The position numbers and the translations under genes were made by a program. A model generated the notes under the pieces. It was not told the DNA's origin, made no database searches, and saw nothing but the letters and a program-made list of their open reading frames with translations. From Chitinophagales bacterium (GTDB lineage: Bacteria; Bacteroidota; Bacteroidia; Chitinophagales; Chitinophagaceae), in assembly GCA_013297995.1 (NCBI GenBank), contig JAAFJB010000031.1:1-32710 (forward strand): a stretch of 32,710 nt of DNA, in the 5' to 3' direction. Below, in pieces: positions 1-29,020 of this stretch (the first letter of the stretch is position 1; every line of letters starts with the position of its first letter).

Positions 1-735
1 GAGGAGATCCGTGAACTTGCGAATGAATTTGGAATGTGGATTATTGAAGACGCTTGTCATTCACCCGGAGGTTATTTTATTGATTCAAAGGGAAATAAGC
101 AAAATTGTGGGAATGGAAATTATGCAGAACTTGCCATTTTTTCTTTTCATCCCGTTAAACATATTGCAGCAGGAGAAGGCGGTATGATTACAACGAATGA
201 TGAAACTCTTTATAAAAAGTTATTAAATCTTAGAACCCACGGAATTCAGCAAGATCCTACAAAAAAAATATTTCATCATGGGGTATGGTATTATGAAATG
301 CAAGAACTTGGATATAATTATCGATTAACAGATTTTCAAGCTGCATTGGGTAAAAGCCAATTGAAAAGAGCCGAAGAAGGATTGAAGAAAAGAAAGGAAA
401 TAGCAAATATTTATTATAATGCTTTTAAAGAATCCAACTTTATTAAAGCACAATCTGGTGTTATAGAAGGTCATGCCTATCATTTGTATATTATTGAAGT
501 GGAACATAGAAATGAATTGTTGGTTTTTTTAAGAGAGCAAAATATTTGGTGTCAAATCCATTATATACCTGCACATTTAATGCCCTACTACAGACAGTTT
601 GGTTGGAATGATGGTGATATGCCTAATGCTGAAAACTATTATCAGCAATGTATTAGTTTGCCAATTTTTCCAACCCTTTCTGAAGAAGAACAACAATTTG
701 TAATTCATAAAATTCAAGATTTCTTTCATGGGTAA
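1..735 (+). CDS. pseC: PseC-type UDP-sugar aminotransferase, 5' truncated
   Basis: PLP-dependent DegT/DnrJ/EryC1-family aminotransferase. In the pseudaminic acid pathway PseC transfers an amino group to C4 of the UDP-4-keto-6-deoxy-HexNAc made by PseB. The reading frame is open from base 1, so the gene begins upstream; the ATG at 34 is internal. Roughly the N-terminal third of a family member of about 380 residues is missing. Visible landmarks are the EDACHSPGG cofactor-phosphate region (bases 46-72), the Schiff-base lysine in FSFHPVKHIAAGEGG (Lys codon 157-159) and the LGYNYRLTDFQAALG segment, all close to Campylobacter PseC as I remember it. The stop overlaps the pseF start by 8 bp, consistent with one operon. 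Family assignment is firm. The substrate is inferred from the homology and the pseF/pseG neighbours. Confidence 0.9.
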   Translation, partial: EEIRELANEFGMWIIEDACHSPGGYFIDSKGNKQNCGNGNYAELAIFSFHPVKHIAAGEGGMITTNDETLYKKLLNLRTHGIQQDPTKKIFHHGVWYYEMQELGYNYRLTDFQAALGKSQLKRAEEGLKKRKEIANIYYNAFKESNFIKAQSGVIEGHAYHLYIIEVEHRNELLVFLREQNIWCQIHYIPAHLMPYYRQFGWNDGDMPNAENYYQQCISLPIFPTLSEEEQQFVIHKIQDFFHG

Positions 736-1426
736 TATAGCAATAATTCCTGCAAGAGGAGGAAGTAAGCGGATTCCAAGAAAAAATATCAAAGGTTTTT
801 TAGGAAAACCAATTATTGCTTACTCTATTGAGGCAGCAATTGCAAGTGATTTGTTTGATGAAGTAATGGTATCAACAGATGATGCTGAAATTGCTGAAAT
901 TGCTGTTAAATATGGAGCTAAAGTTCCGTTTATGCGAAGCCCAATTAATTCTGATGACTTCGCAGGAACTGCCGAGGTTCTCGTAGAAGTGCTTAATGAT
1001 TATTCAAAGAAGAATACATTGTTTGAATACGCTTGTTGTATTTACCCTACAGCACCATTAATTAAAGTGAAGAATATCATTGATGGATTAGATCTATTGT
1101 TAAGAAATAAATTTACTTCAGTATTTCCGGTATGTGCTTTTAGCTATCCAATATTACGAGGATTGAATAGAGATAACTCAGGTAAAACTAAAATGTTGTG
1201 GCCAGCAAATATAAATAAACGTTCACAAGATTTGGAACTAGCTTATCATGATGCTGGTCAGTTTTATTGGATAGATAATTCACTTTTTTTAAAAGAAAGT
1301 AAACTATTTTCTTCTAATTCTGGAACAATAGTATTAAATCAAACAGAAGTTCAAGATATTGACAATGAAAATGATTGGGAAATAAGTGAATTAAAGTATA
1401 AATTGTTAGTTAAAAATGGGGGTTAA
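728..1426 (+). CDS. pseF: CMP-nonulosonate (pseudaminate) cytidylyltransferase
   Basis: Activates a nonulosonic acid with CTP to give the CMP-sugar donor; cytoplasmic. The 232 residues match the usual PseF length of about 230. The N-terminal nucleotide-binding signature PARGGSKRIPRKN (residues 8-20) is followed by GKPIIAYSIEAA, as in PseF/NeuA-family enzymes. STDDAEIAEIA and CIYPTAPL further on also fit the family. The ATG lies within the end of pseC (8-bp overlap), and the stop lies 11 bp inside pseG. No Shine-Dalgarno sequence is seen. PseF rather than NeuA or LegF is chosen from the N-terminal pattern and from lying between pseC and pseG; the exact NulO is not proven by sequence. Confidence 0.9.
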   Translation: MGNIAIIPARGGSKRIPRKNIKGFLGKPIIAYSIEAAIASDLFDEVMVSTDDAEIAEIAVKYGAKVPFMRSPINSDDFAGTAEVLVEVLNDYSKKNTLFEYACCIYPTAPLIKVKNIIDGLDLLLRNKFTSVFPVCAFSYPILRGLNRDNSGKTKMLWPANINKRSQDLELAYHDAGQFYWIDNSLFLKESKLFSSNSGTIVLNQTEVQDIDNENDWEISELKYKLLVKNGG

Positions 1427-2414
1427 AAATAAAATATATTTTAGAGTTGATTGTGGAAATTCAATTGGTTTAGGGCACATCGTGAGGTGCTTAGCGTTGT
1501 CTGAAATGCTCAGCTCAAATTTTGAATGCTGGTTTGTTATGAGACATCCTAATGATCTAATTAAAAACGATGTATATGCTGTAGGTAATAAATTGATATG
1601 CCTTTTAACAGATGATGAAGATGAGTTTATAAATAAGTTAAATGGAACAGAAATTGTAGTTATTGATGGATATGGTTTTGGTGAAGCTTTGCAAAAAAAA
1701 ATAAAAAATCAGGGATGTAAATTAGTTTGTATTGATGATATGAATGAGCAACATTTTTTTGCTGACATTGTAATAAATCATGCTTTAATGGCTAACGAAA
1801 ATCAATATTCAATAGAAAAATATACTAAGTTACTGTTAGGGAAAGAATATATTTTAGTAAGAAAGCCATTTCTGGATGCAGCAAAAAATAGAACTATTAG
1901 AGCCATGGATTTCAAAAATTTTTTTATATGTATGGGGGGTGCCGATAAAGATAATTTAACGCATTATATCACATCTATTATTGCAAGTTTTTCTTGTGTA
2001 GAGTCAATCAGGGTTGTAATTGGAAGCGCTTATTTGGGCGATGTGGAAGCGTTAAAGCTTTTTCATTCTTCAATAAAAATTTACCAAAATGTCAGCCCTA
2101 GTGAAATGGTCGATTTAATGCAGATGTCGGAGTTAGGTATTGTTCCTGCAAGTGGAATTTCATACGAATGTTTAGCTGTAGGACTGCCATTGATTGTTGG
2201 TCATTATATTCAAAATCAATATGCTTTTTATGAAGCGTTAGTGAGTCAAACAAATATCATTGGCGTTGGCTCTTTAAAAGAGATTAATAAATACAATCTT
2301 GAACGAGCAATACAAAAGTTAAAGTTGAATATTAATCAAGGTTCAACTTATGTAGTTGATGGCAATCAACAAGCACGATTTTTAAGCGCATTTAATTATT
2401 TAGCAGCATCTTGA
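1416..2414 (+). CDS. pseG: UDP-2,4-diacetamido-trideoxy-hexose hydrolase PseG
   Basis: GT-B-fold hydrolase of the PseG/SpsG family. It removes UDP from the diacetamido-trideoxy-altropyranose intermediate to release the free sugar for the NeuB-type condensation. The N-terminal motif GLGHIVRC (residues 18-25) carries the histidine (His21) equivalent to the catalytic base of Campylobacter PseG. The C-terminal half has the nucleotide-binding CMGGAD and SGISYECLAVGLPLI segments. It is 332 residues long, somewhat longer than the shortest PseG proteins, and I see no fused GNAT acetyltransferase (PseH) domain. It overlaps pseF by 11 bp and the next gene by 4 bp. Confidence 0.88.
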   Translation: MGVKNKIYFRVDCGNSIGLGHIVRCLALSEMLSSNFECWFVMRHPNDLIKNDVYAVGNKLICLLTDDEDEFINKLNGTEIVVIDGYGFGEALQKKIKNQGCKLVCIDDMNEQHFFADIVINHALMANENQYSIEKYTKLLLGKEYILVRKPFLDAAKNRTIRAMDFKNFFICMGGADKDNLTHYITSIIASFSCVESIRVVIGSAYLGDVEALKLFHSSIKIYQNVSPSEMVDLMQMSELGIVPASGISYECLAVGLPLIVGHYIQNQYAFYEALVSQTNIIGVGSLKEINKYNLERAIQKLKLNINQGSTYVVDGNQQARFLSAFNYLAAS

Positions 2415-3121
2415 GAAGATTAATTATTATAACAGGAGCAAATAAAGGACTTGGTAAAGAATTCTTCAATTTGTTTCATCAAAATAATAATGGAAATGAT
2501 ACCATTGTATCTATATCAAGAAGGTTATCTTCTGAACAAGAAAATCTAGTTGATGGCAATGAAAATAGGTTTGTGTTTATTAAAACTGATTTATCGAAAC
2601 TGGAAAACACTTCATCACTAAAGCAACTTGAAAATTATAAGGAAAATGTGGATCGAGTAGTTTTTATAAGTAATGCTGGAATTGTTACTCCGATCAATAA
2701 TATTGGATTATTAAATGAAATTGACCTTATGAATTCTATATATGTAAATGTAATTTCCCCTGCTATTATTATTAACTACCTTTTTAAAATTTTTGAAGGA
2801 AAAAAAATCGATATAATTAATATTTCTTCTGGGGCTGCAACTACCGTAGTTGAAGGATGGTCTGCCTATTGTAGTGGGAAAGCATATATCCATATGTTTA
2901 TCGAAGCTTTGAAAATTCAAGAAAAAGGTAATAATAATGTCAATATTCATAATATTGATCCAGGTACAATTGACACAGCCATGCAACAAGAAATCAGAAA
3001 TGCTAATGTTAAAGGATTCACAAAACATGCTGAATTTGTAAAACTAAGTGTTGAAGGCAAATTGAAAGATGCAAAAACTATTGCATTAGCAATACTCACT
3101 AAAGAAAAATTAATTATTTGA
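2411..3121 (+). CDS. SDR-family oxidoreductase
   Basis: Classical short-chain dehydrogenase/reductase of 236 residues with a single Rossmann fold. It has the cofactor motif TGANKGLG (residues 8-15), NAG at 88-90, the active-site serine in INISSG (139/140), and catalytic Tyr153 and Lys157 in SAYCSGK. The glycine-rich loop is at the very N terminus, so the TTG at 2411 is the only reasonable start. It forms a TTGA overlap with the pseG stop. The substrate is unknown; the position between pseG and the NulO synthase suggests reduction or oxidation of a sugar or of a substituent on the NulO. It is not an extended NDP-sugar epimerase, because it lacks the C-terminal substrate domain. Confidence 0.82.
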   Translation: MRRLIIITGANKGLGKEFFNLFHQNNNGNDTIVSISRRLSSEQENLVDGNENRFVFIKTDLSKLENTSSLKQLENYKENVDRVVFISNAGIVTPINNIGLLNEIDLMNSIYVNVISPAIIINYLFKIFEGKKIDIINISSGAATTVVEGWSAYCSGKAYIHMFIEALKIQEKGNNNVNIHNIDPGTIDTAMQQEIRNANVKGFTKHAEFVKLSVEGKLKDAKTIALAILTKEKLII

Positions 3122-3822
3122 AAATAGCAGTACTTTCTGATATACATGCAAATCACTACGCACTAGAAGCTGTTCTTTCTAGTGCTAAAATTATAAAAGT
3201 AGAGAAACTATTAATACTTGGAGATAATGTCGGATATTATTACAACCCAGATAAGATTCTTGATATGCTTAAAGAATGGGATTGTGATATGATAAAAGGA
3301 AATCATGAAGTAATTATGGAGAAGTTGGCTAAAGGTATTATTGAGCCTAATTCTTTGAAAAATAAATACGGTAGTGGACATCAAATTGCTATTAAAAAAT
3401 TATCATCGTATCAATTTAATGAACTAGTGAATTTACCAGAAAAAAAAGCAGTGACAATAAATGAAGTGAAGGTATTGATGTGTCATGGTTCTAATTGGGA
3501 CAGTAATTATTACCTATATCCCGATACTAATATAGAAGTACTTGAAAAATGCAATGAGCCATTGATAGACTTTGTAGTTGTAGGGCATTCACACTATCAG
3601 TTTGCATATCGAAATATAAATAGTATATTAATTAATGTTGGTTCTGTAGGTCAATCTCGTAGTGTAGGGGGAGTAGCAAATTGGGCAGTGATCAACACAT
3701 CAAATAAAAGCTTCGAACTAAAGTCAACTCACTATGATATAAGACCTCTTTTAGCAGAAATTAAGTCTATTGACCCAGAAGTAAGTTATCTACGTGAAAT
3801 TTTAAAAAGAAGGAACTCTTGA
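3118..3822 (+). CDS. Calcineurin-like metallophosphoesterase (YfcE/MJ0936-like)
   Basis: Binuclear-metal phosphoesterase of 234 residues. Metal-ligand motifs appear in family order: SDIH (Asp8, His10), GDN (35-37), GNHE (61-64), the CHGSN histidine (His123) and GHSH (156-159). The length and the SDIHANHYALEAVL opening fit the single-domain MJ0936/YfcE phosphodiesterase group rather than PPP phosphatases. The TTG start overlaps the preceding stop as TTGA, and the same overlap links it to the next gene. It lies between an SDR and an ATP-grasp gene in the NulO module. Canonical pseudaminic acid synthesis has no phosphatase step, so its substrate is open; it may hydrolyse a phosphate or phosphodiester on a pathway side product. 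Confidence 0.85.
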   Translation: MKIAVLSDIHANHYALEAVLSSAKIIKVEKLLILGDNVGYYYNPDKILDMLKEWDCDMIKGNHEVIMEKLAKGIIEPNSLKNKYGSGHQIAIKKLSSYQFNELVNLPEKKAVTINEVKVLMCHGSNWDSNYYLYPDTNIEVLEKCNEPLIDFVVVGHSHYQFAYRNINSILINVGSVGQSRSVGGVANWAVINTSNKSFELKSTHYDIRPLLAEIKSIDPEVSYLREILKRRNS

Positions 3823-4763
3823 AGACCAAATATAATATTCTTGTTACAGGCTGTGGTGGGGATATTGGCCAAAGCATTGGAAAAATACTTAAGTCAAGTG
3901 CCCTATTTTCTAATGTGATAGGGTGTGATATGACTGATGAACATGCCAGTATTTTTATTTATGACAAGGTAATTATAGTTCCTGCTTGTAAGTCTTCAAA
4001 ATATATTTCTTCATTAGAAGCAGTAATTAAACAAGAATTGATAGATATAATATTGCCTATTTCAGAGCCTGAGTTAAGACTTTTAAGTGTGTTGAGGATT
4101 GAATATACCTTCCTGAATAAAATGCTTATTTGTGCGAATTTAAAAGCGATGGAAATTGGTTTCGATAAATATGCTACAGCTATTTTTTTACAAAGAATTT
4201 CACTACCTTTCCCAGTTACAAAAATTATCGGAGACATTATAGATCCGACGTTTCCTTTGATTCTAAAAAGTAGAACTGGTGCAGGAAGCAAGTCTATTTT
4301 TGTTTTGAATGATATAGAAGAGTTCAAATTTTACAAGCGAAAATATCCTGATTTTATTACACAGGAATTACTTGTAAATGCTAATGAAGAATATACATGT
4401 GGTGTTTTTAAAAGCATAGATGGGGATCTGAGAACAATCATCTATCGAAGGAAGTTAGTAGATAGCTACTCTGGGTTTGGTGTAGTAGTAGAAAACGAAG
4501 CAATTGAGCAGCTGCTAACCACAATTGCCGATGGACTAGCATTACGAGGCTCAATAAATGTTCAGTTAAGACTAGCCGAAAAAGGCCCATGTGTATTTGA
4601 AATCAATCCTAGGTTTTCAAGTACAGCTATGTTTAGGCATTTGATGGGTTTTGAAGATATTATTTGGAGTATACAGGATGCGCTAGGTATTCCAGTTTCT
4701 AATTATAGCAAGCCATTAGTGGGAACTAAATTTTATAAAGGGTTTACTGAATATGTAAAATAA
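3819..4763 (+). CDS. ATP-grasp ligase (CarB-like), first copy
   Basis: ATP-grasp enzymes join a carboxylate to a nucleophile, usually an amine, through an acyl-phosphate. The 314 residues contain an N-terminal Rossmann-like pre-ATP-grasp domain (VTGCGGDIGQSIG, about 9-21), an ATP-contact lysine in FPLILK (Lys150), a glycine-rich loop GAGS (154-157), and the metal-binding EINPRFS (261-267) whose Glu and Asn coordinate magnesium. The TTG start overlaps the previous stop as TTGA, and one base separates it from the synthase gene. It resembles the second ATP-grasp gene downstream in domain layout and C-terminal motif, so the two look like diverged paralogues. The substrate is unknown; attaching an amino acid or other acyl group to a NulO is an inference from context. 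Confidence 0.82.
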   Translation: MKTKYNILVTGCGGDIGQSIGKILKSSALFSNVIGCDMTDEHASIFIYDKVIIVPACKSSKYISSLEAVIKQELIDIILPISEPELRLLSVLRIEYTFLNKMLICANLKAMEIGFDKYATAIFLQRISLPFPVTKIIGDIIDPTFPLILKSRTGAGSKSIFVLNDIEEFKFYKRKYPDFITQELLVNANEEYTCGVFKSIDGDLRTIIYRRKLVDSYSGFGVVVENEAIEQLLTTIADGLALRGSINVQLRLAEKGPCVFEINPRFSSTAMFRHLMGFEDIIWSIQDALGIPVSNYSKPLVGTKFYKGFTEYVK

Positions 4764-4764
4764 T

Positions 4765-5799
4765 ATGAGTAAGATAATTGATACTTGGTTTTCTAAAATA
4801 AGTGATGAAAACAATTGTTACATAATTGCAGAAATAGGTAGTAATCACAATGGTAATTTTGATCTAGCATGTGAATTAATTGAAAAGGCTGCTGATGCTG
4901 GAGTTAACGCTGTTAAGTTTCAAACATTTAAAGCGAGCAATCATTATTCCACAAAAACTCCAAGAATCAGTTTGTATAATCAAAATGTTTATGAATTAAT
5001 AGAAAGCCTAGAAATTAATAGAGCATGGCATACCGATCTTGCTAAGCTATGCAAGTCTAGGAAGATAGATTTTTTGGACTCACCCTGTGACATAGATGCT
5101 GTGATACTAGCAGAATCTGTCGATATGCCATTGATGAAATTGGCATCTTTTGATATGATTGATATAAGACTTTTGGATGCAATTAGCAAAACAGGAAAGG
5201 GTTTAATTTTCTCTACAGGAATGTCAAATATGGCTGAAATTGAAATGGCAGTTAATATTTGCAGGAAAAACAAAAACGATAAAATTATAGTGTTACAGTG
5301 CACATCTATTTACCCAGCTCCAATTCATTTATCGAATTTGCGGGCAATGGATACTATCAAAAAAAGTTTTAATGTTATCACTGGCTATTCTGATCATACA
5401 CTCGGAGATCATATTGCATGTGCGGCAGTAGCCATAGGTGCTAAGGTTATAGAGAAGCATTATACATTGAATAGAAATTTAGAAGGACCTGATCATAATT
5501 TTGCGATTCAGCCAGAAGAGTTAAAACAAATGATCAATAAAATAAGAGATATTGAAGGTAGTTTAGGTGATGGGATGAAAAATGGCCCTAGATCAGAAGA
5601 AATGGAATCTTATACAATAGCAAGAAGAAGCCTTATCGCAAATAGAGATATTGAGGAGGGTGAAATTATTAAAGAAAACGATATTGTTGTAAAAAGACCT
5701 GGTCTAGGGGTTCATCCTTCTATGATTCAATATGTTGTAGGAAGAACTGCAAAGAAAAAAATAATGAATGATGAACCAATAACATGGGATTTAATATGA
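4765..5799 (+). CDS. NeuB-family nonulosonic acid synthase (pseudaminic-pathway context)
   Basis: Condenses phosphoenolpyruvate with a six-carbon diamino or amino sugar to form a nine-carbon nonulosonic acid. The N-terminal TIM barrel shows AEIGSNHNG (22-30), KFQTF (51-55), STGM (150-153), GYSDHT (207-212), EKHYT (230-234) and GPDH (241-244). A C-terminal antifreeze-like SAF domain covers about 288-344 (ARRSLIANRDIEEGE onward). The length of 344 residues is typical. Context with pseC/F/G argues for a PseI role, but textbook PseI carries AELSANH at the first motif, whereas this one resembles NeuB, LegI or SpsE there and at GPDH. The RPGLGVHP segment in the SAF domain is compatible with both. 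I therefore leave out a gene symbol. Confidence 0.88.
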   Translation: MSKIIDTWFSKISDENNCYIIAEIGSNHNGNFDLACELIEKAADAGVNAVKFQTFKASNHYSTKTPRISLYNQNVYELIESLEINRAWHTDLAKLCKSRKIDFLDSPCDIDAVILAESVDMPLMKLASFDMIDIRLLDAISKTGKGLIFSTGMSNMAEIEMAVNICRKNKNDKIIVLQCTSIYPAPIHLSNLRAMDTIKKSFNVITGYSDHTLGDHIACAAVAIGAKVIEKHYTLNRNLEGPDHNFAIQPEELKQMINKIRDIEGSLGDGMKNGPRSEEMESYTIARRSLIANRDIEEGEIIKENDIVVKRPGLGVHPSMIQYVVGRTAKKKIMNDEPITWDLI

Positions 5800-6746
5800 G
5801 AAAAAAATTATTGTTATCAGGACTAGGGGGTTCTCCCTTTCCATATCTTCATAATCAACTTGCGAAGAAATATGATTTGTATTATATTGACTCAGATGCA
5901 CAACTTTCAAAATTGTATGAAGGATTTAATTTTTACATAGCACCATTAGTCAATAATCCAAATTATTTCAATTTTGTTCATAAAGTTTTAGTAGACAATA
6001 AAATCGACTTTTACATTCCTTTAATTGATGAAGAAATCGTAGAAGCAAAAAATCGATTTGATAAAGAATTTGGAGTTAAGGTGATTGCTCCAAATTCAAA
6101 TTTTTCATCTTTGTGTTTAGATAAATACTCTTTGATGCAGAGTCTTTTGGAAAACAATGTCTCTAATATTAAATCTATAAAAGGGGAGCAGTTCGACGAC
6201 AATACTTTCTTCCCAGTTTTTATTAAGCCAAACTCTGGTAGGGGGAGCAGAGGGATAAGAAAGATTAATACTCAGAAAGAATTAGAAGCTTATTATGTAC
6301 TAGAAAAATATGATCCTAAGGACATACTGGTACAGGAGTTTGTTACTGGAGATGAGTTTACTGTTGGAGTTTCTGTAAATAATCATAACCAATTGATGTC
6401 TATTAGTACGAGGCGAATCATAAAAAAGAAAGGTATTACCCAAATTGCTGTAAATGAGAATTGTAAAATTATTGAACAAGCTGCTGATAAAATTGTTCAA
6501 ATATATAGACCTTGTGGTCCTTTCAATATTCAGTTGTATCTTACTGATAAAAACGAGGCTAAGATTTTTGAAATCAATCCGCGTTATTCGACAACAATTA
6601 TTATGAGTTATGCAGGAGGTATTGATGAAATATCGCTATTTATTGATAATTATGATGTTGATAAGTTAGATTTTTCTATTCAAATACCTGCTGAAAATAT
6701 AACATTACACCGAAGGTGGGAAAATTGCTTTTATGAGAAATTATAA
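5796..6746 (+). CDS. ATP-grasp ligase (CarB-like), second copy
   Basis: Second ATP-grasp enzyme of the NulO module. I chose the ATG at 5796 because it overlaps the synthase stop as ATGA and places the hydrophobic first strand (KKLLLSGLGG) at the N terminus. An in-frame ATG at 5784 would add only four residues. The 316 residues show the ATP-contact lysine in VFIKPN (Lys144), a glycine-rich loop GRGS (148-151), QEFV before the adenine pocket, and metal-binding EINPRYS (259-265). It shares layout and C-terminal motif with the ATP-grasp gene on the other side of the synthase but is clearly diverged. It overlaps the next gene by 14 bp. The acyl donor and acceptor are unknown. Confidence 0.82.
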   Translation: MRKKLLLSGLGGSPFPYLHNQLAKKYDLYYIDSDAQLSKLYEGFNFYIAPLVNNPNYFNFVHKVLVDNKIDFYIPLIDEEIVEAKNRFDKEFGVKVIAPNSNFSSLCLDKYSLMQSLLENNVSNIKSIKGEQFDDNTFFPVFIKPNSGRGSRGIRKINTQKELEAYYVLEKYDPKDILVQEFVTGDEFTVGVSVNNHNQLMSISTRRIIKKKGITQIAVNENCKIIEQAADKIVQIYRPCGPFNIQLYLTDKNEAKIFEINPRYSTTIIMSYAGGIDEISLFIDNYDVDKLDFSIQIPAENITLHRRWENCFYEKL

Positions 6747-7620
6747 GTTGCTTATAGTTGGAGGGACAGGATATTTGGGAAGGCACTTGCGAAAAATACT
6801 GGGCAACGATTGTGGTATATTTTTTACTGGTACAAAATCAATCGAAGCTGAAAATTATATATACATTGATTTTAAAAACCCTTCTTCCTTCGAAACATTA
6901 AAAGGTGTTTTTTTTGAAAAAATTTTGATATTATCAGCATCTATTTCTGGAATTGGTCACAGTAGCCTTGCAAGCAAAGACATTGATGTAAATACTTTTG
7001 CCTATGCCACATTTTTAGAATTTATAAAAATCAATTCTATTTGCGAAAAAATTATATATATATCATCTATGACAGTCTATGGCAGTAGGAATTGCTTGCC
7101 TGTATTAGAATCAGCTAGCTTATCTCCTGTTCATTCGTATGGGTTAAGTAAAAGGATAGCAGAACAATTTACTGAGTTTGTTTGTAACACTTCGCCAATA
7201 AAAGGATTAGTTGTAAGGCTTCCAGGGCTCTATGGAGGTGATAGGGAAAGTGGATTTATATATAATGCTATCAAAACATGCCTCTGTAATAGACCACTTG
7301 TTATAGATATAAACGGATTGAAATACTGGGAAGCAATTGAAGTCAACGACGCATCCATTGCAATATGCGAATTAATGAATACTCACTCTTGGGATGCTTC
7401 TTGTGATGTGTATAATATTTCCTATGGCGAACAATTTGATATTTTTAAAACAGCTCGTTTAATTAAGTATACAACAAATTCGACTAGTGATATAGTAGTT
7501 AAAGGACTAAACAGCTATGAAGATTTTTTTCTTGATAACCGTAAGCTTAAAAGTGTCATTAATTTTAATAAATCATTTATTGGTTCACTAAATAAATATA
7601 TAAACAAATTTAAATCTTGA
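6733..7620 (+). CDS. NAD-dependent epimerase/dehydratase family protein
   Basis: Extended SDR acting on nucleotide-sugar-type substrates. It has a dinucleotide-binding GGTGYLG (10-16) and the active-site triad SSM/Tyr136/Lys140 in SYGLSK, with the VYGS segment common in RmlD/GalE-type enzymes and RLPGLYGG later. At 295 residues it is at the short end for the family. It overlaps the upstream ATP-grasp gene by 14 bp and the downstream phosphatase by TTGA. It could be a 4-ketoreductase, epimerase or dehydratase; nothing in the sequence decides the substrate. It does not have the longer PseB/FlaA1 pattern, so I do not propose it as the missing PseB. Confidence 0.82.
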   Translation: MRNYKLLIVGGTGYLGRHLRKILGNDCGIFFTGTKSIEAENYIYIDFKNPSSFETLKGVFFEKILILSASISGIGHSSLASKDIDVNTFAYATFLEFIKINSICEKIIYISSMTVYGSRNCLPVLESASLSPVHSYGLSKRIAEQFTEFVCNTSPIKGLVVRLPGLYGGDRESGFIYNAIKTCLCNRPLVIDINGLKYWEAIEVNDASIAICELMNTHSWDASCDVYNISYGEQFDIFKTARLIKYTTNSTSDIVVKGLNSYEDFFLDNRKLKSVINFNKSFIGSLNKYINKFKS

Positions 7621-8357
7621 CTTATATAATAGGCGATATCCATGGCGAATCTGAAAAATTAATAATGTTGCTAACAAACATTAGATTATTCGATAAAAAG
7701 CCATTATTTATTTTTGTTGGGGATTATATTGATAAAGGGCTAGATCCAAAGAAAACACTTGATTTTCTTCAAATTTTTAAAACATATAATGATTGTGTTT
7801 TTTTAATTGGTAATCATGAATATGCGTGGATGAATCTAACTAGTACTCAAAATCAAAATAATTTTACAACCTACTTAGAGAAATATGGAGGGGATAATAC
7901 AATATCTTCTTTTGGCGAGAATGATTTTTTTAATACTCAAAAAAGGTTGATGGACGACTACCATTCTTTTTTTTCGAGTTTGAAGCCTTATTATATTATT
8001 AACAACTATTTTATTTGTCATAGTGGTATTAGTCAAGTAAACTACCTACGCCAACCTACGGAATTGGAATCAAGGGATTTTTTATTTAACAGGTATGATT
8101 TTTTAAAAACAGATACTTTTTATTGTAATAAGTATATAATGATTTTTGGGCATACACCATTTTATTATCCATATATTGATACATATAAAATTGGAATAGA
8201 TACAGCTGCTTTTTTTTATAAAGAACGACCCTTAACCTCATTTTGTGTCGAAACTAAAATTTTTCTTAATTCAAACAATCAAAATAAACATCTTAGCGAT
8301 TTCTCGTTAAATATTTGTCCAAATATTGTAAGGTTTAATCCAATGAACAATTTTTAA
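7617..8357 (+). CDS. PPP-family (ApaH/PrpA-like) metallophosphatase
   Basis: Second phosphatase of the module, from a different branch than the first. The PPP signatures GDIHG (6-10), GDYIDKG (35-41, a conservative form of GDxVDRG) and GNHE (65-68) are complete. They are followed by metal-ligand histidines His135 (CHSG) and His179 (GHTP). It is 246 residues long. The GDIHG motif starts at residue 6, so only the TTG at 7617 can be the start; it forms a TTGA overlap with the epimerase stop. One base separates it from the PIG-L gene. Relatives dephosphorylate proteins or dinucleotide polyphosphates. In this setting a sugar-phosphate or other small molecule is more likely, but that is inference. 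Confidence 0.83.
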   Translation: MTYIIGDIHGESEKLIMLLTNIRLFDKKPLFIFVGDYIDKGLDPKKTLDFLQIFKTYNDCVFLIGNHEYAWMNLTSTQNQNNFTTYLEKYGGDNTISSFGENDFFNTQKRLMDDYHSFFSSLKPYYIINNYFICHSGISQVNYLRQPTELESRDFLFNRYDFLKTDTFYCNKYIMIFGHTPFYYPYIDTYKIGIDTAAFFYKERPLTSFCVETKIFLNSNNQNKHLSDFSLNICPNIVRFNPMNNF

Positions 8358-8358
8358 A

Positions 8359-9078
8359 ATGGCTAGATTGTCTTTTCTAAATGACACTAAAATTTTACTT
8401 GTAGTTGCACATCCAGACGATGAATTATTAGGACTAGGTGCTACTATGCATAAATTGATCAATTCATATAATGTAAATGTACATGTTGTTATACTAGGCG
8501 AAGGCATCACTTCAAGGTCTGATAGCAGAAATACAGACTTATGGCAAAACGAGTTAGTAACACATAAAAAAAATATAACTAATGCACAAAAGGCTATAGG
8601 TTATCAAAGCCTTAGTATTTATGATTTTCCAGATAACCGTTTTGATACAATCGCTTTATTGGATATCATAAAAGTAATTGAAAAAGAAAAGAATAGCTTT
8701 CAACCAGATATTATTTTCACTCATCATGGAGGCGATTTAAATATTGATCATCAACGTACATTCGAGGCAGTAATGACAGCTTGTAGGCCAATGGCTCAGG
8801 AAACAGTAAAAACAATAATTACATTTGAAACGCCTTCAGGAACTGAATGGAGATCCCCAACTGATCCTAGATATTTTTTACCCAATTTCTTTGTTTCGGT
8901 TTCTGAGGCAGACATAGAAGCTAAAATTACAGGTATGGAGTCTTATGAATTCGAAAGAAGAACTTACCCCCATCCTCGTTCTCCTGAAGCCTTAAGAATT
9001 CAAGCTAAACGTTGGGGAATTGCCGTTGGTGCCCAATTTGCGGAAGCGTTTTGTATTGTAAGGAGTATATCAGTTTAA
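8359..9078 (+). CDS. PIG-L/LmbE-family deacetylase
   Basis: Zinc-dependent de-N-acetylase family that removes acyl groups from amino sugars. The 239 residues carry the zinc and catalytic motif AHPDDE (17-22; His18, Asp20, Asp21) and the THH...DH region (121-131; His131 as third metal ligand). This layout is typical of the soluble family. It starts one base after the PPP phosphatase and closes the NulO module; an 18-bp gap follows. In context it could remove an N-acetyl group from the NulO or a precursor. That would expose an amine for the ATP-grasp ligases. The biochemical class is secure; the substrate is inferred. Confidence 0.87.
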   Translation: MARLSFLNDTKILLVVAHPDDELLGLGATMHKLINSYNVNVHVVILGEGITSRSDSRNTDLWQNELVTHKKNITNAQKAIGYQSLSIYDFPDNRFDTIALLDIIKVIEKEKNSFQPDIIFTHHGGDLNIDHQRTFEAVMTACRPMAQETVKTIITFETPSGTEWRSPTDPRYFLPNFFVSVSEADIEAKITGMESYEFERRTYPHPRSPEALRIQAKRWGIAVGAQFAEAFCIVRSISV

Positions 9079-9096: not shown

Positions 9097-10737
9097 ATGA
9101 ATTTAATTAAAAGTTATTCGGTTTTTAAAATAGTTCTAAAAAATTATTTTATCAACTCTCGGAATTCAAAATTCGAGAAATTTTTTATTATAAAACTTAG
9201 TCAATTTAAGATAAAATGGAAGCCTTTCAATAAGAAAATTATTCTTGCCGCAATTGTGGATGATTTCGCCATGGCTATTAAAATAGCTTCTGCTTCTCAT
9301 AACCTTGCGAAAATTCATGATGCAAATATTGGACTTTACTCTATTGCTACACAAGTAGAGGACTCAGTTTTTAAGAATAATAAATTTTGGGATTCGATTT
9401 ATTCGGAAGTGTGGTACAGAAGGCTTGATAATATTTTTCTTTCTTTTGGTGGGAAATTATTGTACAGAAATGTTTACAATAATAAAAATGAGTCAATTGA
9501 TAAAGAACTAAAATTTATTCTGAGTAACATTAAAAGTAAGGAGGATGTAATTGCGATTAAAATTCAAGGAATCCATGTTGGAGATTTAGTATATGATACT
9601 TATATGCGAATGGGAAATAGAGCAACTGTAGATATACATGACCCGTTCTTAATACACAATATTAAACAGGCATTGTATATTTATTACGGCTTTAATAATA
9701 TTTTGGAGAAATACGAATTGAAAGCAATTGTTAATAGTTATACTGCATATATCCAATTTGGAATCAATGTGAGGTTAGCTGTAAATAAAGGGATACCTGT
9801 ATACACAGTTGGATCTAGTAATAACTTAGTCCATCGAGTTCATCATGCTTTTTTTTCACATCATAATAATCATTTTAACTATAAAAAATGCTTTTATAAA
9901 CTTGAAGAAAAAGAAGAAAAATTAGCAAATGCAAAGCAATACTTTGAAAAAAGATTTTCAGGACAAGTAGATGCTGCTACTAGTTATATGAAATCTTCTG
10001 CTTTTAACTCATCACACAATAGCAAATTAGATACTATTGATTGGAATAATGCAGTAATTGTTTTAGCACATTGTTTTTTCGACTCGCCGCATATTTACAG
10101 GGGTTTGTTATTCCCAGATTTTTACGAGTGGATTACTTATACAATTGATAAACTATTAATGGTTGAAGGAATTAGTATTTTAATTAAACCACATCCAAAT
10201 GGTGTAGAACAAAATGATACAATTTTTGAAGAATTGAACTTAAAGTATAGTAGTGAAAAGGTAATATTTATAGATAAAAATACATCGCAGCTACAGTTAT
10301 TGAACGCCAAGCCAAAAGCAATCATAACTGCTTATGGAACTGCGGCTTCAGAATTTGCTTATGCTGGAATTCCAGTACTGAGTATATATGATAATCCATT
10401 CACAGGGTATGGGTTCACTAAAATAGCATATAGTATTTCAGATTACGGAAGCATGTTAAGCGATATTCAGCACTTAAAGGTTGAAATAGATAAAAATGAA
10501 ATTCTTGAATACTATTACATGCATCATCTTCACTATATGGGTGGTCATCACCCAGATTGGCTTGAAATCAGTAAGTATAAAGGTGCTACAAATTGCGATA
10601 ACTTTTTAATAGATTATTTGCCAAAAATGAATACAGCTTACTTTTCTCGAGTAGATAATATTATTAGCGATGGAATAAGAATTGCCGAGCAAGAACACAA
10701 TGATGTTGATGATTTTATAAAGGAAACTAATGCATAG
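9097..10737 (+). CDS. Capsule-synthesis (KpsS/KpsC)-like putative glycosyltransferase
   Basis: 546 residues without a signal peptide. The C-terminal half has features of a GT-B fold, such as those of the Capsule_synth and CDP-glycerol-transferase groups: ILIKPHPNG (361-369), then AYGTAASEFAYAGIPVL (412-428), where a Ser/Thr-Glu pair and a glycine-rich turn normally hold the donor phosphate. The N-terminal third (about 1-240) is not recognisable to me. It begins 18 bp after the PIG-L gene and overlaps the next gene by 8 bp. KpsC/KpsS-type proteins transfer acidic keto sugars (Kdo) and some are known or proposed as NulO transferases. Lying directly behind the NulO genes, it is the best candidate here for CMP-NulO transfer, but this is inference. 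Confidence 0.6.
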   Translation: MNLIKSYSVFKIVLKNYFINSRNSKFEKFFIIKLSQFKIKWKPFNKKIILAAIVDDFAMAIKIASASHNLAKIHDANIGLYSIATQVEDSVFKNNKFWDSIYSEVWYRRLDNIFLSFGGKLLYRNVYNNKNESIDKELKFILSNIKSKEDVIAIKIQGIHVGDLVYDTYMRMGNRATVDIHDPFLIHNIKQALYIYYGFNNILEKYELKAIVNSYTAYIQFGINVRLAVNKGIPVYTVGSSNNLVHRVHHAFFSHHNNHFNYKKCFYKLEEKEEKLANAKQYFEKRFSGQVDAATSYMKSSAFNSSHNSKLDTIDWNNAVIVLAHCFFDSPHIYRGLLFPDFYEWITYTIDKLLMVEGISILIKPHPNGVEQNDTIFEELNLKYSSEKVIFIDKNTSQLQLLNAKPKAIITAYGTAASEFAYAGIPVLSIYDNPFTGYGFTKIAYSISDYGSMLSDIQHLKVEIDKNEILEYYYMHHLHYMGGHHPDWLEISKYKGATNCDNFLIDYLPKMNTAYFSRVDNIISDGIRIAEQEHNDVDDFIKETNA

Positions 10738-12454
10738 TGATCTTTCTCCAATAGTATTATTTGTTTATAATAGACCAAAGCATACAGCAGCTACTTTATT
10801 AGCTTTATCTAAGAATAAACTCGCCAACAATTCTTTATTATATGTTTTTGCAGATGGTTTAAAGGAAAATGCTAACGCTGAACAAAGAGAAAAAGTAAGA
10901 GCTACACGAGAAGTGGTAAGAAGCCAAAACTGGTGTGTGAAAACAATCATTATAGAAAGGGATAACAATTTAGGACTTGCAAACTCAATAATTACTGGTG
11001 TTTCTCAGGTAATAGAATTGCATGGAAAGGCAATAGTTATGGAAGATGATATTCTTCCTCGAAAAGGCTTTTTAAAGTACATGAACGATGCTTTAAACAT
11101 GTATGAATTGGATGATAAAGTTGGATGCATTAATGCTTGGAATTATGCATTAGATACATCAAAACAAAAAGACTCAACATTTTTTTTAAAAGGGGCAGAT
11201 TGCTGGGGTTGGGCTACTTGGAAGCGTTCGTGGGATCTGTTTGAATCGGATGGACAAAAATTGTTAAATGAAATTAAAGCGAGAAAGCTTGAGTACAGCT
11301 TTAATAGAAACGGAACTCACGACTTTGTTAGGATGCTAGAGGATCAAATAGCCGGTAGGAATGATTCTTGGGCTGTTAGATGGCATGCCTCTCTTTTTTT
11401 AAATAATAAGTTTTGTTTGTGGCCCACTAAATCAATTGTAACAAATATTGGTTTGGATGGGTCAGGAATACATTCGGGTACCAATGAAATAGAGCAAAAT
11501 AGTGTATCGTTTATAAATGTTCAAAAAATTGAGGTTAAAGAATCTGAATGGTTTTTTAATGCCTATCGGAAAAAAAATACCAAAAGTATAAAGTTCAGTT
11601 TTATTCGATTTTTATGGAACAGGTTAAAATTATTAAACATTCGTGAATTTATCCCTCCAATATTCTACCGTATTAAAAGTTCAATATTTCCAACAATACA
11701 GCAGTCAAAAAGTATTTGGAATGGTAATTATGATTCTTGGGAAATAGCCTCAAATTTATGCACTGGTTATAATGACCAACTGATTCTAGAAAATTGTAAA
11801 AACGCACTGCTAAAAGTTAAAAAAAATGAAGCAGTATACGAGCGCGATAGTGTTTTATTCGATAAACCCAATTATAGCTGGCCTATTGCTACAGGGCTAA
11901 CCCAAATTGCATTAAATAAGAATAAAAAATTAAGCGTATTAGATTTCGGTGGAAGTTTAGGAACTACTTATTTTCAGAATAAATTTTTTCTGAATACATT
12001 AGATAACCTGATTTGGTCAATTGTTGAACAACCGAAATTTGTTGAGGTTGGGCGTGATTTTTTTGCAGATGATCATCTTGAATTTCATTTTACACTGGAA
12101 GAATCGCTTGCTCAAAATAAAGCCGATGTACTTATTTTAAGCGGGGTATTACAATATCTAGATGATCCTGAAAAATGGATAAAACAGTTTATTCATCATC
12201 AATTTGAATATATTTTTATTGATAGAACTGGATTTATAGATCAATTTAATGCTAGGATTCTGATTCAGTCTGTTCCTGCTGAAATTTATAAAGCAGCTTA
12301 TCCAGTATGGTTTTTTAACGAAGAAAAATTTAAATCGTACTTTCTGAATAAGTATGATTTAATCAGCGATTTCAATAGTTTCTGTGATTTGGATACTATT
12401 TCTGATGATGGTAAAAAATTATATTGGAAAGGATTTTTACTTAAACATAAATAA
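10730..12454 (+). CDS. Two-domain glycosyltransferase (GT-A) + SAM methyltransferase (TIGR04325-like)
   Basis: A fusion of 574 residues. Residues 1 to about 300 form a GT-A domain of the bacterial GNT-I-like/GT2 type: PIVLFVYNRPKH (8-18), RDNNLGLANSI (78-87), the metal-binding MEDDILP (104-110), and WGWATWKRSW (159-168), which is typical of this subgroup. A basic linker follows. From about 329 a methyltransferase domain starts with IWNGNYDSWEIA and has the SAM-binding loop VLDFGGSLGT (403-412), the pattern of the LIC12133/TIGR04325 family. One polypeptide probably adds and methylates the same sugar, or caps the chain. It overlaps the upstream gene by 8 bp, and the next gene begins immediately after its stop. 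No frameshift joins the halves; the frame is continuous. Confidence 0.82.
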   Translation: MHSDLSPIVLFVYNRPKHTAATLLALSKNKLANNSLLYVFADGLKENANAEQREKVRATREVVRSQNWCVKTIIIERDNNLGLANSIITGVSQVIELHGKAIVMEDDILPRKGFLKYMNDALNMYELDDKVGCINAWNYALDTSKQKDSTFFLKGADCWGWATWKRSWDLFESDGQKLLNEIKARKLEYSFNRNGTHDFVRMLEDQIAGRNDSWAVRWHASLFLNNKFCLWPTKSIVTNIGLDGSGIHSGTNEIEQNSVSFINVQKIEVKESEWFFNAYRKKNTKSIKFSFIRFLWNRLKLLNIREFIPPIFYRIKSSIFPTIQQSKSIWNGNYDSWEIASNLCTGYNDQLILENCKNALLKVKKNEAVYERDSVLFDKPNYSWPIATGLTQIALNKNKKLSVLDFGGSLGTTYFQNKFFLNTLDNLIWSIVEQPKFVEVGRDFFADDHLEFHFTLEESLAQNKADVLILSGVLQYLDDPEKWIKQFIHHQFEYIFIDRTGFIDQFNARILIQSVPAEIYKAAYPVWFFNEEKFKSYFLNKYDLISDFNSFCDLDTISDDGKKLYWKGFLLKHK

Positions 12455-26041: not shown

Positions 26042-27233
26042 TCCCTCTTTACAACATACGCGTAATACGGTGAAAGCCTTGCAGGCTCAAGGTCACGAAA
26101 CTTATTTTGCTACGGCTTACTGGTTTCATCCCAATGGTTGGTTTGAAAAAATAGTGGCGGTTTTTTTTCCTGCTTTATTCAAATCCCTTCAATCTAAATG
26201 CGACTCGGAGATTCCAACGGACAAAGTCATCACAAGATTTTCAGCTCTTTTTTTACCTTTTCTGAATCGCTTGCTCAAACGTTCTGTTGAGTACAGTTCT
26301 TATACAGAAGATCGCTTTCACGATATATGGGTGAGTAAATGGGTTGAATTACACAAACCCCAGTTGGTAATTGGCTATGAAAAATCTTGCCTCAGAAGTT
26401 TTACCGCTGCTAAAAAACACGGAGCTATTACCTGCTTAGATTTGGCTCAGGTTCATCCCTATTTTATTCGGCATCTTCGCCAACAACATCCTTTTTTCAA
26501 ATCTATTACGGGTAGTGAATCTCTTTTTAATACCATCGCTCAACATAAATTGAATGAATACCAATTAGCCGATAAAATTATTTGCATCTCCCCATTTGCT
26601 AAAAGTACATTATCGGAATATGGAGTAGGGCTTGAAAAGATTGAACTCACTATTTTGGGCTTTAACCCCCAAATATTTTATCCAAACGCTACTAAAATAA
26701 TCAATACCCATGAACCCCTTCGCTTGATTTATGCAGGCATCATCACCAAAAGAAAAGGCATTCATATTTTATTGGAATCACTTAACTCTTTTCCCTCCAA
26801 TAGTATTCATCTTACGCTAATTGGTCCCGCTGGTGATGCCAGTGATTTACTCGCTGCTTACAAGAATACTTTGCCTATTCAATATATTCCCGCCTGCTCC
26901 CAACTTGAATTGGCCAATCATTTTAGAGCGGCTCATATTTTTGTTTTCCCCAGCTTTCTTGATAGCTGGGCCGCTGTGGTTGCCGAAGCCATGGCTACTG
27001 GACTACCCGTTATTACTACTTCGTCTACCGGTGCTTCTGCTATGGTTGATAGGCATTGTGGCTTTGTTATTGAACCGGGTAATTTGACTGAATTAAATAG
27101 TGCCATTCAATTTTTTATTGATCATAAATCTGAAATTCCCAGCATGGGTATTCATGCAGTTCAACAAATTGCCCCCTATACCTGGAAGCGGTACAACCAA
27201 GAACTCAAGAACTCAATCAACCCAATAACTTAA
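26022..27233 (+). CDS. GT4 family glycosyltransferase
   Basis: 403 residues from a TTG that sits 20 bp inside the previous gene. KVLVSNPSLQHTRNTVKALQ is the expected first beta-alpha unit of a GT-B fold, so a later start is unlikely. Donor-domain motifs are YAGIITKRKG (237-246), LIGPAGD (266-272) and DSWAAVVAEAMATG (314-327), which stands in for the usual EX7E with Asp at the first position. The N-terminal domain is longer than in its two upstream paralogues. The stop overlaps the asparagine synthase start as TAATG. Confidence 0.83.
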   Translation: MKVLVSNPSLQHTRNTVKALQAQGHETYFATAYWFHPNGWFEKIVAVFFPALFKSLQSKCDSEIPTDKVITRFSALFLPFLNRLLKRSVEYSSYTEDRFHDIWVSKWVELHKPQLVIGYEKSCLRSFTAAKKHGAITCLDLAQVHPYFIRHLRQQHPFFKSITGSESLFNTIAQHKLNEYQLADKIICISPFAKSTLSEYGVGLEKIELTILGFNPQIFYPNATKIINTHEPLRLIYAGIITKRKGIHILLESLNSFPSNSIHLTLIGPAGDASDLLAAYKNTLPIQYIPACSQLELANHFRAAHIFVFPSFLDSWAAVVAEAMATGLPVITTSSTGASAMVDRHCGFVIEPGNLTELNSAIQFFIDHKSEIPSMGIHAVQQIAPYTWKRYNQELKNSINPIT

Positions 27234-29020
27234 TGTGCCGAATAGCTGGTATTATTTCTCCCAACGCTAAGCCCGATATGGCTGCTATTATTGCCATGCG
27301 CGATACTATGCAGCATGGTGGCCCCGATGACGCAGGTATTTTTACCGATGATACTGCTGGCATTGCCCTGGCGCATCGCAGGTTATCGCTGCTTGATCTT
27401 TCCGCTGCTGGTCACCAACCCATGTTGAGTAGCAACCAACAACTCATTATTGTTTTTAATGGAGAGATCTATAATTTTCAAGTGCTGAAACAAGAACTCA
27501 TCCTTCTCGGGCACCATTTTATTTCTCATTCCGATACCGAAGTTATTTTGGCCGCTTATCTACAATGGGGGACTAACTGTTTTGAAAAATTCAACGGTAT
27601 GTTCGCCCTCGCCATTTATGATATTCAAAAACAAGAACTAATTCTTGCCCGGGATCATGCTGGCATTAAACCGCTATACTATAGTTTCTCTAACGGTAAT
27701 TTTTATTTTGCCTCCGAGACAAAAGCTTTTAAACAAATCAACCCCAATTGGAAGGAACAGCGCGACTGGAAAACTTACTTACTTGTTTTTGGTCATATTC
27801 CCGAACCCTTTACTACTTTGGACGGCGTACTGAGCTTGCCCAAAGGCAGTTTTATGAAACTGAATATTTCGCAGCTTTCTCATTCCATTCACTATTTTAA
27901 TAAACCCAATTATAATTATACCATTCACAATGAATCCATTGCCATTGATGCCATTAGAACCACCCTTCGCGATGCCGTTAAAACACATTTGATTGCTGAT
28001 GCACCCATTGGCTTGTTTTTAAGTGGGGGTATCGACTCCAGCATTCTTACCCTGCTTGCCAAAGAATTTATTGGTGAGCATTTACATACACTGTCGATCG
28101 ACTTTAACCAGTCCGCTTTCTCCGAAAAAAAGTACCAAGACATCATCATTCAACAAACCAACGCCAAACACCAATCCTTCACCGTTGATCAATCGCTTTT
28201 TGAACATTCAATGGATGATATCTTAAACGCAATGGATCAACCCAGTAATGATGGTATCAACTCCTATTTTATTACCAAATATGCCCAAGCTGCTGGACTA
28301 AAAGCGGTGCTTAGTGGTATTGGTGCTGATGAATTATTGGGGGGTTATCCTTCTTTTAAGCGCGCGGGTATGCTTGCAGAATCTCAGCTCATTCCTAATT
28401 TTATTTTTCCACTTGCTGAATTTTTAAAAGGCGATAAAAACAAAAAAATCCGTTTTCTGGAAAGGAAAAATGCAATGGGTCAGTACCTCTTCAACCGTGG
28501 TTTTTTTACCCCAGCTCAAGCTTCAAATATTTTAGGTATCTCTATCCTTGAAATTCAACAAGCTATTGATAAAATAATTTTACCTGATTTTGTACAGCAG
28601 CTCGAGCTTCAAGAACAAGTAAGTTTTACAGAGACCAATCTCTATATGCAAAACCAATTGCTGCGCGATACCGATTATATGAGTATGTGGCATTCCATTG
28701 AAGTGCGTGTGCCTTTTCTCGATAAAGATTTTATGCAAGTATGCCAGAGCATTCACCCGACTATTCGTTTTAGCGGTGGCCCCAAACACTTACTCATCAA
28801 GGCTTTTAAAGATATACTGCCCGAAGAAATTTGGAACAGACCCAAGCAAGGTTTTATTTTTCCTTTTCAACAATGGTTTGCTACCATGCAATTACCGCTA
28901 ACTGATTCTGCATTATTACAAGCCTATAAATCTGGTCTTCCTTCTGGTAAAACTCACTGGAGCAGGTACTGGTGCTATTGCTTGAGTCAACTTAAAAATA
29001 ACAACAACAAATCTTGGTAA
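27233..29020 (+). CDS. asnB: Asparagine synthase-type glutamine amidotransferase
   Basis: 595-residue class II amidotransferase. The N-terminal glutaminase has Cys2 as nucleophile (MCRIAGI), HRRLSLLD (48-55), NGE (76-78) and SDTE (100-103), which bind glutamine. The C-terminal synthetase has the PP-loop SGGIDSS (264-270) for ATP. Length is typical for AsnB. It uses glutamine nitrogen to amidate a carboxylate. Flanked by GT4 genes and joined to them by overlaps, it may amidate a uronic acid of the glycan, as AsnB-like proteins in some O-antigen loci do, rather than make asparagine. That role is inferred. The DNA is visibly richer in G+C than the 10-23 kb part. Confidence 0.9.
   Translation: MCRIAGIISPNAKPDMAAIIAMRDTMQHGGPDDAGIFTDDTAGIALAHRRLSLLDLSAAGHQPMLSSNQQLIIVFNGEIYNFQVLKQELILLGHHFISHSDTEVILAAYLQWGTNCFEKFNGMFALAIYDIQKQELILARDHAGIKPLYYSFSNGNFYFASETKAFKQINPNWKEQRDWKTYLLVFGHIPEPFTTLDGVLSLPKGSFMKLNISQLSHSIHYFNKPNYNYTIHNESIAIDAIRTTLRDAVKTHLIADAPIGLFLSGGIDSSILTLLAKEFIGEHLHTLSIDFNQSAFSEKKYQDIIIQQTNAKHQSFTVDQSLFEHSMDDILNAMDQPSNDGINSYFITKYAQAAGLKAVLSGIGADELLGGYPSFKRAGMLAESQLIPNFIFPLAEFLKGDKNKKIRFLERKNAMGQYLFNRGFFTPAQASNILGISILEIQQAIDKIILPDFVQQLELQEQVSFTETNLYMQNQLLRDTDYMSMWHSIEVRVPFLDKDFMQVCQSIHPTIRFSGGPKHLLIKAFKDILPEEIWNRPKQGFIFPFQQWFATMQLPLTDSALLQAYKSGLPSGKTHWSRYWCYCLSQLKNNNNKSW

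Follow-up and report, generated by a model that had tools for sequence, protein, structure and literature searches.

What gene set surrounds a NeuB-family synthase when the same three enzyme classes flank it on both sides? This question is raised by a contig of a Chitinophagales bacterium (JAAFJB010000031.1, assembly GCA_013297995.1), the whole 32,710 nucleotides of which are called the window here. In the window, a short-chain dehydrogenase (SDR), a metallophosphoesterase (MPE) and an ATP-grasp protein precede the synthase gene, and an ATP-grasp protein, an epimerase-type SDR and a PPP-type phosphatase follow it. The initial annotation regarded this arrangement (2411..8357) as one mirror-like accessory set for a nonulosonic acid (NulO). 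Comparison with other genomes demonstrated that conserved gene sets are indeed present; however, they do not form one tailoring set but two cassettes that occur apart elsewhere, and a single mirrored unit was ruled out, as each half was found without the other half in other genomes. Cassette I comprises a variable gene (for an SDR, methyltransferase or epimerase), a metallophosphoesterase and an ATP-grasp protein, and lies ahead of a PseI in several phyla; cassette II has the order NeuB-ATPg2-SDR2-PPP2-PIGL, which is also the order in the window. All seven genes of the unit as first delimited are present, but the unit runs on into a PIG-L gene (8359-9078). Because two conserved gene sets recur in other genomes, the gene arrangement exceeds chance. 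Judged from the gene content, the best reading is added chemistry on the NulO, perhaps an amino-acid or acyl modification, as had been suggested at the outset. The genes concerned are as follows:

34..735, + strand: PseC aminotransferase, C-terminal part (TIGR03588, 267 bits on the partial protein; full-length cut-off 423.5)
728..1426, + strand: PseF, CMP-pseudaminate cytidylyltransferase (TIGR03584, 300 bits, above the cut-off of 206)
1416..2414, + strand: PseG, UDP-sugar hydrolase (TIGR03590, 193 bits, above the cut-off of 154)
2411..3121, + strand: SDR1, short-chain dehydrogenase in the variable slot of cassette I (Pfam adh_short)
3118..3822, + strand: MPE1, metallophosphoesterase of cassette I (Pfam Metallophos_2)
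3819..4763, + strand: ATPg1, ATP-grasp ligase of cassette I (Pfam ATP-grasp_3, PylC-like_N)
4765..5799, + strand: NeuB-family synthase of a non-PseI clade (Pfam NeuB and SAF)
5784..6746, + strand: ATPg2, ATP-grasp ligase of cassette II (Pfam ATP-grasp)
6733..7620, + strand: SDR2, epimerase-type NAD enzyme of cassette II (Pfam Epimerase)
7617..8357, + strand: PPP2, PPP-type phosphatase of cassette II (Pfam Metallophos)
8359..9078, + strand: PIG-L de-N-acetylase of cassette II (PF02585, AHPDDE motif)
9097..10737, + strand: orf546, possibly a transferase, neighbour of PIG-L (no Pfam or NCBIfam match; a homologue adjoins PIG-L in locus L045)

From PseC (34) through PIG-L (9078), every gene is on the + strand and overlaps its neighbour or lies 1 base apart; the seven open reading frames (ORFs) of 2411-8357 show overlaps of 4-16 bases or single-base spacing. 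Their order from SDR to PPP phosphatase and their enzyme classes were borne out by the ORF coordinates and Pfam, and the expected motifs were found, with SDR1 matching TGxxxGxG and YxxxK but not two strict SDR patterns. As first surmised, the two ATP-grasp proteins look like diverged paralogues (27% identity over 239 aa, E 2.6e-15; both with FEINPR[FY]S), the phosphatases and the SDRs are of different branches (MPE1 and PPP2 are common only at the superfamily level, with 27% over 112 aa and E 7e-7; SDR1 and SDR2 have no significant match), and none of the six flanking enzymes is a textbook enzyme of pseudaminic acid (Pse) synthesis.

Cassette I Recurs in Several Phyla

When named genome contigs were scanned with an alignment of ATPg1, 341 relatives were found, of which the best 80 loci (L022-L101) were kept and the lower ones left unseen. 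Adjacency was counted by tblastn in testable loci, with at least 900 nt of contig upstream and at least 1300 nt downstream, and neighbour types were tallied from ORF labels, which missed the ATPg1 ORF in 11 of the 80 loci owing to ORF picking. Of 79 testable loci, 74 have an MPE gene on the same strand as ATPg1 and at most 460 nt upstream of it. A synthase starts downstream of ATPg1 at a distance of up to 2.2 kb in 56 of 71 loci, and 53 of 70 loci have both genes. Bacteroidota contributed 39 of the 80 loci, and the rest include Bacillota, Pseudomonadota, Planctomycetota and Nitrospirota. The first four orthologues (G014, G060, G440 and G246) all have MPE, ATPg1 and synthase in a row, although few Bacteroidota have ATPg1 at all: at E 1e-40 or better it was found in 3 of 395 genomes of the phylum, own genome counted. 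Recurrence of the gene order around neuB/pseI homologues, which the initial annotation had named as its own test, was thus positive within Bacteroidota and in other phyla, and cassette I is nearly certainly a conserved NulO-linked gene set. The first slot is variable: in the 57 loci with MPE called beside ATPg1, the preceding gene was SDR1-type (24), a methyltransferase (9), SDR2-like (6), PseG (4), GNAT188 (3), an epimerase (2) or another gene (9), and PseG and the SDR are fused in one protein in L024.

In the ATPg1 alignment of 60 sequences, FEINPR (260-265) and Q182 are invariant and E183 is nearly so; alignment A5 comprised the window sequence and 59 of the 60 listed sequences (without L051), and A6 the window sequence and 56 of the 60 (without L044, L048, L051 and L085). 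The structure model of ATPg1 had a predicted local distance difference test (pLDDT) score of 94.8. The fold and conserved residues of the ATP-grasp carboxylate-amine ligase class are present, and amide formation is predicted. The model of MPE1 was nearest to 2gju and to SapH (3qfm); LpxH was not among the 50 matches listed, which does not amount to its exclusion.

We considered MPE1 as a candidate substitute for PseG, because 17 of the 80 loci have GNAT188 without PseG and G014 and G060 lack PseG, with no match found genome-wide in either. However, MPE1 also occurs where PseG is present, which speaks against such a substitution. PseG (46 loci) and GNAT188 (17 loci) were mutually exclusive, with both in 0 of the 80 loci. 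L042 (4603-8627) and similar loci carry a recurring group of a GNAT, an aldo/keto reductase (AKR), an SpsF-like cytidylyltransferase and a HemL-like aminotransferase. The AKR and SpsF pair resembles EpaA (8-epimerisation), and together with the aminotransferase the pair may yield an 8-amino NulO similar to the hydroxybutyramide-bearing one of Flexibacter maritimus (PMC3210612; this and the other papers cited by PMC number are referred to through the part of their text available to us).

Cassette II and the Composite Nature of the Locus

Three of 396 genomes of the order, the own genome included, have an ATPg2 match of E 1e-30 or better; the orthologues are in G255 and G631, both from one other family. 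The G631 locus (L134), from another genus, has NeuB-ATPg2-SDR2-PPP2-PIGL in the window order, with identities of 70, 53, 44, 46 and 68%, respectively. In the G255 locus (L106), from yet another genus, ATPg2 (45% identity), PPP2 (38%) and PIGL (63%) lie beside a PseI, and an opposite-strand ORF between ATPg2 and PPP2, AKR-like by eye, is at the SDR2 position. On these three genomes, cassette II is well supported as a conserved NulO-linked set. Cassette I was not found in the L134 or L106 stretch, and G255 gave no ATPg1 match at E 1e-40. Because L134 and L106 carry cassette II without cassette I, we concluded that the window is a composite, in which cassette I lies ahead of a complete cassette II. 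A search with PPP2 of the ORFs from 84 loci gave no match at E 1e-8, and no plasmid matched ATPg2 at E 1e-20. Weak ATPg2 matches in L107 and L108 were rejected as cassette II.

Capsule loci often shuffle, and the rarity of ATPg1 in the phylum and of ATPg2 in the order would suit a variable capsule locus in which sugar genes have come together by chance, without joint function; however, order and spacing are conserved in distant genomes for both cassettes, and this recurrence largely refutes chance assembly, which we regard as highly improbable.

The window synthase scored 361 bits with NnaB (cut-off 400) and 295 bits with PseI (cut-off 340), both below the cut-off. Together with the synthases of L134 and L056 it forms one clade (support 100/100) outside a 63-row PseI clade (100/99), and the scores across this small clade were 361-363 bits for NnaB and 295-316 bits for PseI, neither reaching its cut-off. 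Five synthases from other loci scored above the PseI cut-off (454-512 bits), namely those of L016, L020, L031 and L042, which have cassette I, and of L106, which does not. Since L056 carries cassette I together with a window-like synthase, cassette II is not the only one to go with this synthase clade. Beside their Pse genes, L020 (4230-6002), L016 (14171-15187) and L134 (5922-6914) also encode a divergent second NeuB-like protein, that of L020 being fused to a CTP_transf_3 domain.

Host Cluster and the Search for PseH

The window starts within PseC, and the N-terminal half of PseC is on contig C179 of the same assembly, which has 125 identical bases in common with the window start. Upstream of PseC, C179 carries PseB (own PseB hidden Markov model (HMM), 524 bits) as well as ORFs that, by eye, resemble the ATPase and permease of an ABC transporter, a co-polymerase for polysaccharide and an export protein. 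We infer the cluster order PseB-PseC-PseF-PseG-SDR1-MPE1-ATPg1-NeuB-ATPg2-SDR2-PPP2-PIGL. On this gene content, we lean towards a capsule or O-antigen-type locus with a Pse-like pathway (PseB-PseC-PseF-PseG), in which two cassettes for N-acyl tailoring would replace or edit the usual N-acetylation. By eye, an AsnB-like glutamine amidotransferase is encoded in the same locus (window 27233-29020), and a RhuM-like protein (31441-32463) is found where the glycan locus ends on the right, with a gap between. In Tannerella forsythia, an AsnB-like protein has been proposed for the acetamidino group on Pse (PMC6120980).

Four acyltransferase HMMs of our own, covering two PseH-like GNAT families, NeuD-like hexapeptide enzymes and formyltransferases, gave no match in the window or C179, and no acetyltransferase domain was found in the window PseG (no GNAT match with Pfam or our HMMs). 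The best match to TIGR03585 (PseH) in the genome, on another contig, was 64 bits (cut-off 93); because PseH matches turned up in 13 of 14 control genomes too (one above the cut-off), such genome-level matches mean little. We tallied acyltransferases in the 53 of the 80 cassette I loci with PseC upstream. With PseG present and no extra aminotransferase (AT3), a GNAT was found in 0 of 19 loci, a NeuD-like enzyme in 6, a formyltransferase-like one in 3, and none of the four families in 11; with both PseG and AT3, PseH1 was found in 14 of 16 loci; without PseG, GNAT188 was found in 14 of 18. Where PseG is present, the GNAT tracks the extra aminotransferase, not the PseC step. Cultured environmental carriers of cassette I include Neolewinella marina MKG-38 (L066), whose cluster showed no member of the four acyltransferase families, and Pedobacter foliorum LMG 31463 and Mucilaginibacter phyllosphaerae, which have a NeuD-like gene. 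The PseG frames of the 35 loci (19 and 16) span 310-434 aa, which is too short to include a fused GNAT; only in L024 is there an extra part, and it is the SDR. Pfam detected no GNAT in 13 unlabelled ORFs from the 19 loci (ten from five loci, and one each from L024, L037 and L091).

In clusters that lack cassette I, PseG carries a fused GNAT in L134, L106 and L141 and has a GNAT beside it in L137, and none was recognised in L138, L140, L146, L148 and L149; both clusters with cassette II alone (L134 and L106) retain the PseG-fused GNAT. Because a PseH-type GNAT occurs in none of the 19 clusters with PseG but without the extra aminotransferase, we propose that cassette I probably stands in for the acetyltransferase PseH. 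The PseG-free loci do not simply fit this proposal. In L140 (5753-6952), an L-amino-acid-ligase-like ATP-grasp (LAL_C2) was observed alongside PseG, PIG-L and a NeuB-type synthase; no GNAT was recognised in this cluster.

PIG-L Neighbourhoods Suggest Deacetylation and Re-acylation

PIG-L was found in 19 of 395 phylum genomes at E 1e-40, own genome counted. Of the 18 other genomes, 15 were examined further, L106 and L108 being counted elsewhere and G113 (internal stop) omitted; PseG and/or a synthase was present in 10 of these 15 neighbourhoods and a formyltransferase-like gene in 4. A formyltransferase-like gene also lies directly before PIG-L in the cassette I loci L031, L045 and L058, and the nearest solved relatives of PIG-L by sequence are diacetylchitobiose deacetylases. 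This pattern suggests deacetylation followed by re-acylation, and suggests that ATPg2-SDR2-PPP2 occupies the place of the formyltransferase in the window. In L138, two large ORFs that appear carbamoyltransferase-like by eye (6487-8163 and 10182-11966) flank the synthase and PIG-L in a Pse cluster; they perhaps represent another acyl donor for the amine freed by PIG-L.

Phosphatase Pairing and a Proposed Mechanism

Distant ATP-grasp homologues were analyzed at 11 loci by scanning selected neighbours, with L013 (the own ATPg2) and L015 (the same gene as L011) not counted. In 6 of the 11, the adjoining gene encodes a HAD (L006, L010, L011, L107 and L108) or PHP (L005) protein; NeuB lies on the other side of the ATP-grasp gene in L006, and PIG-L is beside it in L008. 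Neither a phosphatase nor PIG-L was recognised among the scanned neighbours in L007, L009, L012 and L014. Because four phosphatase families (YfcE/SapH-type, PPP-type, HAD and PHP) partner this ATP-grasp group, we infer that the ATP-grasp protein and the phosphatase act together, and the HAD enzymes among the partners point to a phosphomonoester substrate. PseB-type sugars are 6-deoxy, and a NulO-9-phosphate or sugar-6-phosphate was therefore rejected as an unlikely substrate.

We suggest that, in each cassette, the ATP-grasp ligase would use ATP to activate a carboxylic acid and form an amide between it and a free amine of the sugar, that the partner phosphoesterase would take off a phosphate, which most likely comes with a phosphorylated hydroxy-acid donor and is removed after ligation, and that the SDR, or elsewhere the methyltransferase or epimerase, would trim the acyl group or the sugar. 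Such N-acyl tailoring by ATP-grasp plus phosphatase is, on the sequence evidence, rather probable. Cassette I would then acylate the PseC-derived amine (N7) in the stead of PseH, and cassette II the GlcNAc-derived amine (N5) once PIG-L has removed the acetyl group; these two assignments are tentative and fall somewhat short of an even chance. Because N-glyceroyl and di-O-methylglyceroyl Pse exist, the acyl group is best guessed, by analogy, to be of the glyceroyl type, although this specific identity is unlikely to prove right. A more general scheme is conceivable but doubtful: in NulO decoration at large, an ATP-grasp ligase might attach a phosphorylated, phosphoglycerate-like hydroxy acid to an amine of the sugar, and the acid might then be unmasked by a dedicated phosphatase from any of the four interchangeable families, with the ligase replacing PseH (N7) or following PIG-L (N5), so that the window NulO would be modified on both amines.

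The same proteins might serve other chemistry. The ATP-grasps could make a group of the carboxyl or carbamoyl type, or attach an amino acid, with the phosphoesterases clearing a nucleotide by-product (dinucleoside polyphosphate or UDP). The best NCBIfam matches of ATPg1 and ATPg2, both below cut-off, are to a 'carbamoyl phosphate synthase-like protein', there is model similarity to carboxylases and, for MPE1, to an Ap4A hydrolase, and the top NCBIfam match of PPP2 is to symmetrical Ap4A hydrolases, at 43 bits (cut-off 176). However, ATP-grasp ligases pass via acyl phosphates, not acyl-AMP, and the HAD-family neighbours at five homologue loci are more likely phosphomonoesterases, which leaves such by-product clearance unlikely. 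Alternatively, the oxidoreductases, perhaps the whole cassettes, could alter NulO stereochemistry (8- or 4-epimerisation) in the manner of EpaA/EpaB or ElaA/AciE, with the ATP-grasp and phosphatase in a side role. In Acinetobacter, an SDR plus AKR/cytidylyltransferase enzymes turn Pse into 8ePse (PMC12053666), and AKR and SpsF genes are present in many cassette I loci. The near-invariant pair of cassette I is, however, the phosphoesterase and the ATP-grasp, the SDR slot being often taken by a methyltransferase or another gene; no AKR was labelled in L037, and our AKR HMM had no match in the window or C179 at E 1e-3. The EpaA/EpaB-type combination of an AKR partner, a CTP_transf_3 protein and an SDR was not found in the window, where Pfam covered part of the ORFs and PseF was the only cytidylyltransferase match. 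We consider epimerisation as the main role quite improbable, slightly more so than by-product clearance, and N-acyl tailoring by the paired ligase and phosphatase remains our preferred reading.

Comparison with Known Systems

Pseudaminic-type sugars, which coat flagella, capsules and S-layers, vary widely in their N-acyl groups; the genes for unusual NulO acyl groups are an acknowledged gap. In the open-licence literature, we found neither cassette described, which is not proof of absence, no paper linking a metallophosphoesterase or a PIG-L deacetylase to Pse, and, for nonulosonic acids with ATP-grasp, only the Shewanella sfm paper. ATP-grasp and Pse occur together in three papers, PMC6321876 among them. 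For T. forsythia, the candidate gene for the N-glyceroyl group has been called elusive, and the biochemical and genetic basis is said to pose a major challenge (PMC6120980, PMC6388019); Pse of Clostridium is treated in PMC13317340. If true, decoration by ATP-grasp plus phosphatase would supply the missing genes for N-glyceroyl-type Pse. The pair beside a synthase, also present in cultured environmental strains, offers a testable candidate and a marker gene for predicting acyl variants.

Compared with the textbook pathway (PseB-C-H-G-I-F), the window has PseC, PseF and PseG, with PseB on the abutting contig; however, no PseH was found in the window cluster, the synthase is outside the PseI clade, and two ATP-grasp/phosphatase cassettes and PIG-L are added. 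The sfmABCDE genes of Shewanella oneidensis, which are involved in modifying flagellin with a mono-N-acetyl Pse-like sugar bearing a further moiety, likewise combine a NeuB-like synthase with an SDR and an ATP-grasp; likened here by description, they differ in having a thiamine pyrophosphate enzyme and a methyltransferase, not a phosphatase and PIG-L, and an ATP-grasp of 412 aa (PMC3765264). In the type B flagellin locus of Clostridioides difficile, the ATP-grasp CDR20291_0245 is needed for an amide-bearing terminal sugar, and its mutant lacks the peptidylamido sugar, but the available text names no NulO synthase or phosphatase there (PMC5207246). Cj1295 of Campylobacter jejuni, treated alongside di-O-methylglyceroyl Pse, is proposed to remove the C5 acetamido group, with methylglyceroyl replacing it, which is akin to the role suggested for PIG-L; however, it has an aminopeptidase-like domain, not PIG-L, and the ligating enzyme is not named in the available text (PMC3068675). 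Finally, although psaE of the Acinetobacter modules psaABCDEF and psaABCGHF is an acetyltransferase, not an ATP-grasp, the N7 acyl group of Pse varies there with the genes that replace psaD (nucleotidase) and psaE (PMC9676051).

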